A stretch of 32,159 nt of DNA from a virus. Shown piece by piece: positions 7,083 through 16,643 of this stretch (its first letter is position 1; the number at the start of each line of letters is the position of its first letter). The stretch covers positions 1 to 32,159 of the IMG/VR virus record IMGVR_UViG_3300036846_000419. One strand, given 5' to 3'. The notes below the pieces were generated by a model that saw only the letters and a list, made by a program, of their open reading frames with translations, did no database searches and had not been told where the DNA came from. A program made the translations under genes and the position numbers.

Positions 7083-7267
7083 CCGCCGCCGAGCGTCGCG
7101 CCGAGATCGAGCGGCTGCGCGCGCTGGTGCGGCACTACCAGGCGCTAGCCGCAGCGCCGCAGCCTGAACAACGAGGTGACACATGCCGCCGCAGATCGAT
7201 CCCGCACACCTCGATCCCGAGACCTCGCCCGACGGTGCGATCATCACCACGCCAACCGGCTGGCTGA
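7079..7267 (+). CDS. Possible small coiled-coil ORF overlapping the GH5-like gene
   Basis: ATG overlaps the ART-gene stop (ATGA). The first ~33 residues look like a real helix (AERRAEIERLRALVRHYQAL), but the remaining ~28 lie in another frame over the start of the next gene and look random (Arg/Pro/Ser). Either a short peptide is made with a run-on tail, or the reading is accidental and the region is only the leader for the gene at 7183. No family recognised. Confidence 0.35.
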   Translation: MTAAERRAEIERLRALVRHYQALAAAPQPEQRGDTCRRRSIPHTSIPRPRPTVRSSPRQPAG

Positions 7268-8475
7268 TCGACGCGCAGGGCAACCGCTTTTCCCTCGTGC
7301 GCAGCGCCGACAAGGGGCTGCAAATCCGCATCAACGCGTTTGTGGATGGCGTCACCGAGAATGTGCGCATGCTGCTCATGGACGGCGGCCGCTGCTATCA
7401 GAACAACCACGCCGGCGACTGGTATGGCTACAACGGACAACCCGGCGCGTGGGAAGGCCCGCTTGCGAGGCCATCGCCGCCCGACCCGCCGAAGCCGCCC
7501 GACACGACGGGTGTGTTCGGCGTGAAGAATGGCCGCATCGTCGATCCCAACGGCGATGTCTGGCACGCCAGAGGCATCAATTTGCGGTTTATGAACTGGC
7601 CGGACAACCAGAACTCGGTCATGCACCACGCGATCGGCGACCGCGACGAATGCACGCCGGTGCTGGCGACGTTCCCCGGCCTCAACTGCATCCGCTTCGA
7701 TGCGTTCGAGAGCATGGCGCAGTTCGGCCAGGCGCAGCCCGATGCCATCTGCCCCTATATCGACAGCCTCGTGGCGCAGGGCGTGGTCGTCGAGGTCGAG
7801 TGCCACGTATTTCCGCAGGTGCTGCAAGGCAGCGATCTCGATCAGGTGTGCGCGTGGTACACCGAGCTTGCCACCCGCTACCTCGACACACCGAACGTCA
7901 TCTGGGGCACGCAGAACGAGCCGGGCGGCCCGCCGGACAACTCGATCCGGCGCATCTACCAGGCGATCCGCGCCACGGGGAACAACAACCTCATTCTGCT
8001 CTGCCCGAACGGCGGCTGGACCTGGCAGGACATGAACCCGGCGAATTACACCGATATGTTCGGCGTCGCGTGGGATTTCCATTTCTACGGCTGGCTGCCG
8101 AATTACTCGCAGGACCAGCACGTCGTCGATCGTAAGCTGCAGGAGATGATCGACACTGGCGCGTCGTTCGTGTCGCAGGACGGCCCGATCCCGAGCGTGG
8201 TTGCTGAGTTCTCGCCCGCCGGCTTCCAGGGCAGCAATGCGATCTTCGTTGAGAACCAGTTCTGGGTCGATCCCAACTGGGTGCAGGTGTTGCAGGCGGT
8301 CTACCGCAGCAAGACGCTGTGCGGCTGGGTGCAGTGGTACTGGAACACACCCGAAACCACGGCCAGCAACGGGATCGGCCACCTGCTCAAGCTCCCCAAC
8401 CTCGACGGCTCGAGCCTGACGCAGCACGGCGGCGACGAATGCCGCAGCGCGATCGCTGCCGGGCCGCCGCAGTAA
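7183..8475 (+). CDS. Glycoside hydrolase family 5-like protein (cellulase/endoglucanase fold)
   Basis: This encodes 430 residues with GAGGTGAC just before the ATG. Residues 1-91 form a small beta module (DGAIITTPTGWLIDAQGNRF to GDWYGYNGQPGAWE), like the sugar-binding-type repeats seen in alphaproteobacterial secreted enzymes. A Pro-rich linker (92-108) leads to a TIM-barrel-type region (~110-420). All main GH5 landmarks are present in order: Arg171 (NCIRFDAF), His208 (VECHVF), the acid/base Glu246 in TQNEPGG, His300/Tyr302 (DFHFYG), the nucleophile Glu342 in VVAEFSP and Trp384/386 near the end (GWVQWYW). No signal peptide is visible. By inference it cuts a beta-linked glycan (cellulose, capsule or exopolysaccharide) as a virion-borne or released depolymerase. 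Its place between portal and scaffold genes is unusual. Confidence 0.85.
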   Translation: MPPQIDPAHLDPETSPDGAIITTPTGWLIDAQGNRFSLVRSADKGLQIRINAFVDGVTENVRMLLMDGGRCYQNNHAGDWYGYNGQPGAWEGPLARPSPPDPPKPPDTTGVFGVKNGRIVDPNGDVWHARGINLRFMNWPDNQNSVMHHAIGDRDECTPVLATFPGLNCIRFDAFESMAQFGQAQPDAICPYIDSLVAQGVVVEVECHVFPQVLQGSDLDQVCAWYTELATRYLDTPNVIWGTQNEPGGPPDNSIRRIYQAIRATGNNNLILLCPNGGWTWQDMNPANYTDMFGVAWDFHFYGWLPNYSQDQHVVDRKLQEMIDTGASFVSQDGPIPSVVAEFSPAGFQGSNAIFVENQFWVDPNWVQVLQAVYRSKTLCGWVQWYWNTPETTASNGIGHLLKLPNLDGSSLTQHGGDECRSAIAAGPPQ

Positions 8476-9849: not shown

Positions 9850-10822
9850 ATGGCCGACATGAACGTGACTCCGGCCCGGCAAGGGTTAACCCCCTTAATA
9901 TGGGATTCGGAGTTCTTCAGCGAGTACGTTCGTAGGAATCAATTCCAAAAATATATGGGCACCAGCACCGGGTCGCTCATCCAAGTGCGGGAAGACCTCA
10001 CCCGCAAATCCGGCGACACCGTGGTGTTCCCCGCCATGCGCCGCCTCGTCGGAGCCGGCGTGACTGGCAACACCATCCTCGAGGGCAATGAGGAAATCCT
10101 CAACCTCCGCTCGATGAACCTCACCGTGTCGGCGTTCCGCCACGCCGTCGCGGTCAGCGATTGGGACGAGCAGAAGTCCGTCGTCGATCTCAGGGAGGCA
10201 GCGCGCGAGGCGCTGATGACCTGGGAATTGGAGAAGATGAGGACGGACATCATCTCCAGCCTCGGCGCGATGACCGCCGACGGTAACGTGCAGGTGTCCT
10301 ACGGCGCCGCGACCGCCGCCCAGCGTAACACCTGGATGGTGAACAACGCCGACCGTGTGCTGTTCGGCCACCAGAAGGCCAATGCCGCATCTGGCGTCAT
10401 GGCCACCGCACTGCTCACCCTGGCATCGCCCGGCGACCGCATGACCGCCGCCATCCTCACGCTCGCCAAGCGCATGGCGCGCACGGCAAATCCACGCATC
10501 CGGCCGATCACCGTCAACGACGACGAGGAATGGTTCGTCTGCTTCATGCCGAGCCTGGTGTTTCGTGACCTGCTGCTCGACACCACGATCACCAACGCGC
10601 TGCAATATGCCTGGAACCGTGGCAGCGACAACCCGCTGTTTACCGGCGGCGACTTGATTTACGACGGAATAATAATCCGCGAAATCCCTGAGCTTGGTGT
10701 CATCACCGGGGCCGGCGCCGGTGGCGTCGATGTGGCCGCGTCGTTCCTGTGCGGCGCGCAGGCGCTGGGGTGCGCTTGGGCGCAGCGGATGAAGTCGACG
10801 ACCAATACTCGTGACTACGGGT
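9850..10822 (+). CDS. Major capsid protein, N4-gp56 family, exon 1
   Basis: The gene is split. Exon 1 gives codons 1-324 plus the first base of codon 325; exon 2 is 11094-11230. Joined, they encode 369 residues in one frame. The protein begins MADMNVTPARQGLTPLIWDS and carries hallmarks of N4-gp56-type coat proteins (HK97 fold class): SGDTVVFPAMRRLVGAGVTG, LRSMNLTVSAFRHAVAVSDW, and a late DYG motif right before the break. Read without splicing, the frame runs 7 codons into the intron (SMGPTIH) and stops at 10845, losing the conserved C-terminus. The exon end is placed after T10822 because GGGU pairs with the intron's internal guide and because splicing here to 11094 gives TRDYGYMHGVGIQEI. Confidence 0.85.
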
Positions 10823-11093
10823 CAATGGGCCCCACCATCCATTAATGGGTGGTCGCAAACCGGGTGAACTCAGGGAACCTCTCTCGTAGACAATCCTGAG
10901 CCAAGCCGCCGCAAGGCGGAAGGTGCAACGACCAGAGCGAAAGCTCGTAGGGCCAAGCGGCCCGAAGCGCCCGGCACCCCAAGTGGGTGGTGATATGGTC
11001 TCATCTCACCGGCGACGGTGAGCAGCCCGAAAAGAACGGGCGGTCAGGGCCTCGCGAACCTTGACGAAGAACCGAAACGACCTACATCAGGTG
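10823..11093 (+). ncRNA. Self-splicing group I intron (IA-like) inside the major capsid gene
   Basis: A full group I core can be drawn. P1: exon GGGU|C (10819-10823) pairs with GGCCC (10828-10832), with U10822-G10829 at the splice site. P3: CCGGGT 10860-10865 with GCCCGG 10969-10974. P4: CAGG 10871-10874 with CCTG 10895-10898. P6a: CCGCC-GCAA-GGCGG (10906-10919). P7: GACCA 10930-10934 with TGGTC 10996-11000. P7.1: GAGC-GAAA-GCTC (10935-10946). P7.2: GGGCC-AAGC-GGCCC (10950-10963). P8: CACCC 10975-10979 with GGGTG 10985-10989. P9: 11005-11022. P9.1: 11025-11041. P9.2: GTCAGGG 11043-11049 with CCTTGAC 11059-11065. The P7.1/P7.2 pair marks subgroup IA. The GGGAACCTCTCT and GTAGACAATCC blocks match my memory of the T4 td intron core and its relatives. 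At 271 nt it holds no ORF. The 3' end (G11093) is my best choice; 11090 is possible. Confidence 0.9.
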
Positions 11094-11230
11094 ACATGCA
11101 CGGTGTAGGAATTCAGGAGATACGTTCGATCGGGAAACTGCGCTTCGGCACAGACCCGACGGTCGACACTACAAAGCCAGTCGATAACGGTATTTTCACG
11201 ATCTTTACTACCGCCGTCGCAGACGCCTAA
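11094..11230 (+). CDS. Major capsid protein, exon 2
   Basis: This encodes the C-terminal 45 residues (MHGVGIQEIRSIGKLRFGTD, then a PVDNG turn and FTTAVADA) of the N4-gp56-type coat. It follows the exon 1 DYG motif, as in unsplit homologues where 'DYG..(.)GVGI' is followed by a 'K.RFGTD..VD' stretch. It cannot be translated in frame with exon 1 unless 10823-11093 is removed. No good ribosome site precedes an independent start. A 34-nt hairpin follows the stop. Confidence 0.85.
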
Positions 11231-11302: not shown

Positions 11303-12025
11303 ATGGCTAACGAATACGTGGCCTACACGGGCCCTGTTGTCACGCGCGACGAGGCTGTCGCCGAGGGCCTGTCCCGCTACTTCACCGGCAAACCCTGCCA
11401 GCGCGGCCACCTCAGCCAACGGCGCACGGTCAATCATGGCTGCAGTGAGTGCGAATGGAAGAAGCTGCGGCGCGACGACCGCAACGCGAGCGAGCGTCGG
11501 GCGCGGGAACTGAATCCTGATATTGAAAGAGCGCGCGTCGCCCGTTACCTCGCAACCGACAAAGCTAAGGCCACGCGCCTCGCTTACTATCTGGCACACG
11601 TCGAGGACATCAAACGACGTGCGAAGGAATGGAAAGAGCAGAACCCAGAGCGGGCGCTGGAGAATAGGCAAAAGCACTACGCCGCGAATAAGGACAAGAT
11701 CGTCCAACGTGTCGCTGCCTGGAACGCCGCCAACCCAGATGGTCCGCGCACAAGAGGCCGGAACTACCGCGCCAAGCTGAATGTGGCAGAAGGCAGCCAC
11801 GCGCGGCAGGAAGTCGCGGCACTATACGAAAAGCAGGGAGGCATCTGCGTCTATTGCGCCAAGCCTCTCGGGACCAAATACCACGCCGACCATATCGTGG
11901 CGCTCAGCAAGGGCGGCTCTAACTGGATCAGCAACATCCAACTGACCTGCGGACCCTGCAACAACCACAAGCGGGCAACTGATCCGGCTGAGTTCGCCCG
12001 CCGCCTGAAGCCCAAAGCCGCATAA
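11303..12025 (+). CDS. Free-standing HNH homing endonuclease next to the capsid intron
   Basis: This encodes 240 residues. The N-terminus has a zinc-ribbon-like module (TGKPCQRGHLSQR, then CSEC; Cys32, His36, Cys47, Cys50) often seen in phage HNH enzymes. A long charged helical linker (~55-160, with NPE/NPD turns) follows. The C-terminal HNH nuclease has CVYC (182-185), HADHIVALSKGG (His194, Asp196, His197), Asn211 and CGPCNNHK (Cys216, Cys219, His222), all needed for metal and zinc binding. ATG at 11303 has AGGAG 9 bases upstream. It lies 72 bases after the capsid stop and its own stop abuts the AGGAG of the next gene, so it has been slipped neatly between two virion genes. By inference it cuts intron-less capsid genes and mobilises itself and the intron. 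Confidence 0.88.
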   Translation: MANEYVAYTGPVVTRDEAVAEGLSRYFTGKPCQRGHLSQRRTVNHGCSECEWKKLRRDDRNASERRARELNPDIERARVARYLATDKAKATRLAYYLAHVEDIKRRAKEWKEQNPERALENRQKHYAANKDKIVQRVAAWNAANPDGPRTRGRNYRAKLNVAEGSHARQEVAALYEKQGGICVYCAKPLGTKYHADHIVALSKGGSNWISNIQLTCGPCNNHKRATDPAEFARRLKPKAA

Positions 12026-15944: not shown

Positions 15945-16001
15945 ATGGCCAGCGAATATCAGCACATCGCCGGAACCGATGCCGTGTTGCGGTATGTTGT
16001 T
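15945..16001 (+). repeat. Duplicated 5' coding end (copy 1) of the small tail gene
   Basis: The first 19 codons here (MASEYQHIAGTDAVLRYVV) parallel the first codons of the gene at 16633 (MAAEYQYITNYDGVKRYID): eleven positions are identical and several more conservative. Identity is clearer at protein than DNA level, as many shared codons differ synonymously (GAA/GAG, CAG/CAA, CGG/AGA). The two copies flank the HNH gene, so they look like the original and the imported replacement of the target gene's start. Confidence 0.65.
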
Positions 16002-16643
16002 GAGCCTCCATCCCGCATGCTGTATCATTACGGCATGCCAGCTAAAATGTATGATGGTTGCTTCCACCCCGGATGTGAACGCCCGCATATGGCCAAGGGC
16101 CACTGCCGATTGCATTACGAGCGCATCAAGTTCACAGGCGATCCTGAACCTAACCAGCTAGCTCTTTTGCGCGATAAAAGCAGGTCATTGGACGACTGCT
16201 TTATGGTTATGTTCGGAAGGTCGAAAAGGACCGCAGGTGGATGCCTCGTCTGGGCTGGTTCAAAGAACGTAGATCGCTATGGCCGCATGGTGAGGGGCGG
16301 TAAGACATTCTTTGCTCATCGTCTATCCTATGAGCGGTTTGTCGGACCGACACCAAGCGACATGGAGATTTGCCATACCTGCGATAATCCTTCATGCGTT
16401 AACCCAGAGCATCTGTTCCTTGGGACGACGAGGGATAATGCTCTTGATAGAGAGGCGAAGGGCAGAAGCGCGAACCATCTCAAGAGGATCGCGTTCAGGT
16501 TCCGTGATCCTAACGGCAGGATTGTAAGAGGCGTAGGCCTAAGCGGATTCTGCCGTGAGCGGGGGCTGCTCCAGCCAAAGATGAGTCAGGTTCTTAATGG
16601 GAGCAGGCAAAGCCACAAAGGGTGGACGCGCCATGGCCGCTGA
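15945..16643 (+). CDS. HNH homing endonuclease (HNH_3 type) inserted at the head of a tail gene
   Basis: The frame encodes 232 residues. Residues 1-19 (MASEYQHIAGTDAVLRYVV) belong to a tail protein and match the start of the next gene at 16633. The endonuclease proper probably begins at Met31 (16035) or Met35. Its zinc-knuckle start is GCFHPGCERPHMAKGHCRLH (Cys39, Cys44, Cys54, His57). The HNH core spans ~99-175: GCLVWAGSKNVDRYGR, AHRLSYERFVG (His125), CHTCDNPSCVNPEHLFLG (His144, Asn153, His156). A NUMOD-like DNA-binding tail follows (GFCRERGLLQPKMSQVLNGS, then HKGW). The gene is visibly poorer in GC than its neighbours, a sign of transfer. A GCATGC inverted pair (16015-16020/16033-16038) surrounds the Met31 start. 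Confidence 0.88.
   Translation: MASEYQHIAGTDAVLRYVVEPPSRMLYHYGMPAKMYDGCFHPGCERPHMAKGHCRLHYERIKFTGDPEPNQLALLRDKSRSLDDCFMVMFGRSKRTAGGCLVWAGSKNVDRYGRMVRGGKTFFAHRLSYERFVGPTPSDMEICHTCDNPSCVNPEHLFLGTTRDNALDREAKGRSANHLKRIAFRFRDPNGRIVRGVGLSGFCRERGLLQPKMSQVLNGSRQSHKGWTRHGR

Follow-up and report, generated by a model that had tools for sequence, protein, structure and literature searches.

The major capsid gene of this virus is broken into two pieces, which raises the question of whether the break is removed from the RNA and how it came to be there. The window, that is, the whole 32,159-nt stretch of DNA that was analysed, is a virus record in which the terminase, P22-type portal and capsid genes follow one another in the usual order. 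Based on its match to PF13252 (Phage_capsid_3; E = 1.5e-45, 156.2 bits, cut-off 23) and its place in the head-gene order downstream of terminase and portal, the open reading frame (ORF) at 9850-10845 is a capsid gene; it also matches PHROG 334, major head protein (E = 1e-62). This ORF stops 7 codons past a DYG motif (DYGSMGPTIH, then the stop codon), and the conserved capsid C-terminus lies in a different frame, in the ORF at 11018-11230. The original prediction, made from the sequence by itself, had described this arrangement correctly and explained it by a complete group I intron at 10823-11093. Between the portal and capsid genes lies a glycosyl hydrolase family 5 gene (7183-8475; cellulase type, PF00150, E = 1.3e-11).

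When 9850-10822 is joined directly to 11094-11230, the translation has exactly 369 residues, with the C-terminal end RDYGYMHGVGIQEIRSIGKLRFGTD...VADA, the product length that had been predicted. The interruption is thus as claimed, but its length is 271 nt rather than the approximately 250 bases first given. We collected capsid relatives from IMG/VR (at least 80 fetched, then at least 80 rows by a second query), which after clustering gave 101 non-redundant capsid clusters among the matches listed, 84 of them intronless and 17 intron-bearing. Most relatives are continuous across the junction; the best among the matches listed, L002, is 96% identical in protein sequence over 369 aa and runs through the junction in one frame. 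These many natural empty alleles support the spliced reading. An AlphaFold model of L002, meant for placing the insertion sites, had a mean pLDDT of 56 and was set aside. A host assignment through a prophage search was rejected, as the Variovorax and Achromobacter capsids found are only 48-51% identical and lack the intron. The coordinates are collected in Table 1.

Table 1 The interrupted capsid gene, its intron and the adjacent endonuclease gene in the window, with the intron insertion sites found among capsid genes
Feature	Position	Strand	Basis or remarks
Exon 1, major capsid gene	9850..10822	+	Residues 1-324 and base 1 of codon 325; last base U; junction set by intronless relatives
P1: exon GGGU(C) with internal guide sequence (G)GCCC	10819..10832	+	U10822-G10829 wobble, 5' splice site; fold; exon/guide table of 17 introns
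Group I intron, 271 nt, ORF-less, last base G	10823..11093	+	RF00028; boundaries; covariation
In-frame stop TAA	10843..10845	+	P2 loop, 21 nt into the intron; unspliced product would be 331 aa
Catalytic core P3-P8, 138 nt	10864..11001	+	137/138 identical to L026, 136/138 to L001
P9, P9.1 and P9.2 hairpins	11004..11066 (limits approximate)	+	Fold; covariation
Exon 2, capsid gene	11094..11230	+	Remainder of codon 325 to residue 369 and stop; C-terminus conserved in 20 intronless relatives
Free-standing HNH endonuclease gene, proposed homing partner	11303..12025	+	72 nt past the capsid stop; PF14279 E = 1e-11, PF01844 E = 7e-10; PHROG 1035/2118
Insertion site A	After base 1 of codon 325		Window and most other introns
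Insertion site B	13 nt downstream of site A		L001, L109
Insertion site C	After codon 28		L026
Insertion site D (tentative)	Codon 24		L285:3066-3334, L286; with U...G boundaries, both contigs are one base out of frame

A cmscan search of the window gave a single Rfam match, to RF00028 (group I), at 10803-11022 on the plus strand, with 60.6 bits (gathering cut-off 50), E = 3.4e-13 and the full model (1-253) covered. The family assignment had been drawn from known group I architecture and td-intron core blocks, and a covariance-model search had been proposed as its check; it now rests on this match above the gathering cut-off. The predicted fold of the intron RNA has a free energy of -126.5 kcal/mol (z = -3.5 relative to shuffled sequences) and shows P1, P2, P3, P4 and hairpins of the P6a to P9.2 type. 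Across 66 homologous introns, 95.0% of the cells of 40 named core pairs (P3, P4, P5, P6a, P7, P7.1, P7.2 and P8) are paired, 28 of the 40 pairs have changed on both sides, and the core covariation score is 0.524, compared with 0.154 after shuffling and no more than 0.10 when the pairings are slid. The pseudoknot helices P3 and P7 are paired in 100% of cells of the same 66 introns, with compensatory changes; P7 occurs as GACCA/UGGUC, GAUCA/UGAUC and GACUA/UAGUC. For P2, P9, P9.1 and P9.2, compared among the 17 capsid introns, pairing is 97.2% and covariation 0.521 (0.216 shuffled). Hairpins at the group IA-type positions P7.1/P7.2 (between P7 and P3) and P9.1/P9.2 are paired and covarying in this general pairing and covariation analysis. 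Fold and covariation bear out the helices named in the original prediction, although its list fell short of completeness, P2 and P5 having been left out. The description of the intron as complete holds for the ribozyme; an endonuclease ORF is absent from the intron, and an HNH gene lies just outside the host gene.

An exon U before the intron, an intron-final G and a U-G pair in P1 (U10822-G10829 in the window, as foreseen) occur in 17/17 capsid introns as delimited, and the U...G boundaries restore the capsid frame in 16 of the 17. Exon and guide change together: GGGU/GCCC, GACU/GGUC (L094) and GCGU/GCGC (L026, L109). Of the intron-bearing clusters, 13/13 use GGG for the glycine codon preceding site A, compared with 15/77 of those without an intron (p = 2e-8). 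A guide that requires GGGU would lead to this pattern, but so would an intron able to enter GGGU alleles only, or one that carries the codon along. In many site-A introns, of the window, L015 and L028 types, about 20 extra bases lie between P9.2 and the 3' splice site (11067-11093 in the window); other introns lack them. We conclude that the assignment to group I, both splice sites, the U-G pair in P1, a product of 369 aa and the identification as a capsid gene all have independent backing from tool results. The splicing reaction we infer from identity, boundaries and structure.

We therefore favour, with a probability of roughly 0.88, an explanation in which a group I ribozyme in the capsid gene is excised to give the 369-aa coat protein and is itself a recent, mobile, mosaic element, most likely spread by an HNH enzyme. 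The ribozyme splits codon 325 of the gene behind its first base. The guide GCCC would pair in the pre-mRNA with the GGGU that ends exon 1, guanosine would attack at U10822, and the exons would then join after G11093, releasing 271 nt. On RNA that is left unspliced, ribosomes would halt at the TAA in P2, ahead of the core. The intron would be a recent arrival that moves horizontally: the HNH enzyme would cut the intronless gene, and repair would copy the intron-bearing allele, as in collaborative homing.

The source is a metagenomic virus record without an isolate, and the interruption could accordingly reflect a frameshift, gene decay or faulty assembly, with no working intron. This is barely credible given that distinct intron sequences preserve their pairing through compensatory changes and that in 16/17 introns removal at U...G boundaries restores the reading frame. 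A core shared between introns could be confused during short-read assembly, yet each intron agrees with its own site at both ends, and the cores show differences at 1-2 positions. Since the window intron fits site A at its two ends, no mis-join through the shared core is needed. It is also very improbable that the unspliced mRNA is used as well, with the 331-aa product serving as a functional minor coat protein and splicing as a regulatory switch. The presence of an in-frame stop within intron nt 1-27 in 17/17 capsid introns would suit such a switch, but an early stop is usual in group I introns, where it is thought to bar ribosomes from the core (PMC3073962). Relatives with as little as 52% identity conserve the 45 residues that the short product would lack, and the solved homologous coat protein 9vye, which aligns to residues 4-365 of the query, contains this C-terminal region. 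Nor is the stop tied to the exon frame more widely: a frame-specific pre-core stop as a selected trait of the whole intron family was considered and rejected, because among 57 wider introns 49 have such a stop in the exon frame and 40 and 47 in the two other frames.

If the intron is spliced from a 369-residue gene, how did it reach its site? On the capsid-gene tree, intron presence changes at least 12 times, which indicates frequent gain or loss. Introns occur at three sites in the gene and tentatively at a fourth, and Rfam confirms those at sites A-D as group I. The spacing is about 13 nt both between sites A and B and between sites C and D, possibly by chance. The window core is 99% identical to those of L026 (site C) and L001 (site B), and exon 1 is only 85-86% identical. 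Compared with the site-A introns L015 and L028, by contrast, the cores are 83% and 75% identical and the exons 82% and 77%. The ends follow a different pattern. The window P1-P2 region is identical at 38/41 positions to that of L094 (site A) and 58-67% identical to those of L001 and L026, and its 3' end is closest to those of L015 and L028 (73%, compared with 55-57%). As the core is shared with sites B and C and the ends are of the site-A type, the window intron is a mosaic, with site-A ends around a recently moved core. In each intron the guide sequence matches its own insertion site, the last four exon bases being GGGU in the window (site A) and L001 (site B), and GCGU in L109 (site B) and L026 (site C).

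Such a mosaic may have come from recombination between resident introns, or from transposition followed by rapid change of the ends. Movement at the RNA level without endonuclease homing, by reverse splicing into GGGU or GCGU, reverse transcription and recombination, would account for near-identical cores at three sites that have in common only the last four exon bases pairing with the guide, the same signature as proposed for reverse splicing in rDNA (PMC1299323). We consider it unlikely, as the P1-P2 regions and 3' ends diverge between sites (55-67% identity) and those of the window resemble the ends of other site-A introns; exchange of cores between residents fits this better than one recent jump. 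A broader reading is that a single group I lineage roams this one essential phage gene, its core exchanged or jumping between sites as little as 13 nt apart and its 4-base guide retuned, in step with the free-standing nuclease beside the gene. We hold this tentatively, at somewhat less than even odds; if true, it would amount to contemporary site-switching by an intron in a protein gene.

The neighbouring HNH gene bears on the mode of spread. The locus has the arrangement of collaborative homing, an ORF-less intron with an adjacent free-standing endonuclease gene, and an HNH homologue lies beside the capsid gene in 13/17 intron-bearing but only 17/84 intronless clusters (odds ratio 12.8, p = 1.6e-5). 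Based on this enrichment, collaborative homing with the neighbouring enzyme is the likeliest, though unproven, means by which the intron spreads. Once relatedness is controlled for, the association is borderline (7.3 vs 1.6 independent pairs, median p = 0.11); with sites C and D excluded, a step chosen post hoc, it is 7.7 vs 1.1 pairs (median p = 0.039). The HNH gene could instead be an unrelated free-standing homing gene that favours the same locus, the intron having moved by other means or being now immobile. That fits the borderline test, the absence of the gene next to the introns at sites C and D and in two of the site-A clusters, and the related HNH genes that adjoin intronless capsid genes, the closest of which (L006, 75%) comes from an intronless phage. 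Against it stand the raw enrichment and the recent sharing of cores, which marks an element still moving, so that we think this alternative doubtful while giving it appreciable weight. A comparison by eye for a resistant target in the intronless phages that carry the HNH gene gave no consistent difference at site A. A second HNH endonuclease gene (15945-16643; HNH_3, PF13392) is found among the structural genes of the window.

The intron belongs to a family that is common in phage capsid and DNA-polymerase genes. We scanned IMG/VR with core patterns and annotated 73 upstream ORFs. Among the matches listed, at least 21 of these are SU10-type capsid and at least 13 DNA polymerase A; three further capsid families, the window included, account for at least 12 in all, and there are others besides. 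As the set was selected by pattern and some genes give more than one ORF, these counts are not frequencies. Some SU10-type capsid contigs carry three or four family introns matching RF00028 (L113:148-1763, L095:4037-5727 and L082:1647-3028, all on the minus strand). DNA searches for the whole intron in named phages found only parts of it, mostly core fragments. In EBPR siphovirus 1 (JF412302.1, L302:2001-2834), an intron-core-like sequence directly follows the head protein gene gp47 and is followed by the HNH gene gp48; this sequence has no Rfam match at the cut-off.

Capsid-gene introns were previously known from single cases. With 17 intron-bearing and 84 intronless clusters and the same core at three or four sites, this gene offers a natural test bed for intron movement, in which three routes of site change can be set against one another: reverse splicing, repair driven by an endonuclease, and recombination of resident introns. 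For virus catalogues, unannotated introns may split capsid genes, so that coat proteins are truncated or missed. Phage C72C1 (OQ984150.1) is an example. As in the window, a group I intron (L303:1934-2174; RF00028, 81.8 bits) splits the major head protein gene, and its core is 70% identical over 98% of the window core. C72C1 is a different phage, and its record carries no recognition of the intron, which separates two CDSs both named 'major head protein', with small hypothetical ORFs annotated on and beside it.

Since capsid-gene group I introns are already known, the window is a further case of a known type. In the major capsid gene of mycobacteriophage LittleE, a group I intron was proven by RT-PCR and N-terminal sequencing, in a paper that also cites Tuc2009 (PMC3706429). 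It shares with the window the intron type and gene, the exon-end U, the intron-end G and the existence of intronless relatives. However, LittleE belongs to a different phage group, its intron is about 820 nt long with an internal endonuclease ORF, whereas that of the window is 271 nt and ORF-less with the HNH gene outside, and splicing was shown there and is deduced here from sequence. Collaborative homing, in which a free-standing endonuclease acts with an ORF-less intron, is described for cyanophage psbA, T7-like phages and the ICP1 terminase (PMC3984707, PMC10448857). The window likewise pairs a group I intron that lacks an ORF with an adjacent, free-standing endonuclease gene of homing type, but collaborative homing is defined by cleavage at the insertion site and the window is known by its gene arrangement, with HNH genes also beside intronless genes. 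For group I introns in rDNA, spread by reverse splicing has been proposed, and related introns occupy several sites (PMC1299323). The window family resembles them in using several sites in one gene that have in common only the 4-8 exon bases pairing with the guide. What sets it apart is that the host is a protein gene of a DNA phage, the cores are 99% identical and the ends are mosaic; it is uncommon for a single protein gene to harbour nearly the same core at several sites, with a guide fitted to each.
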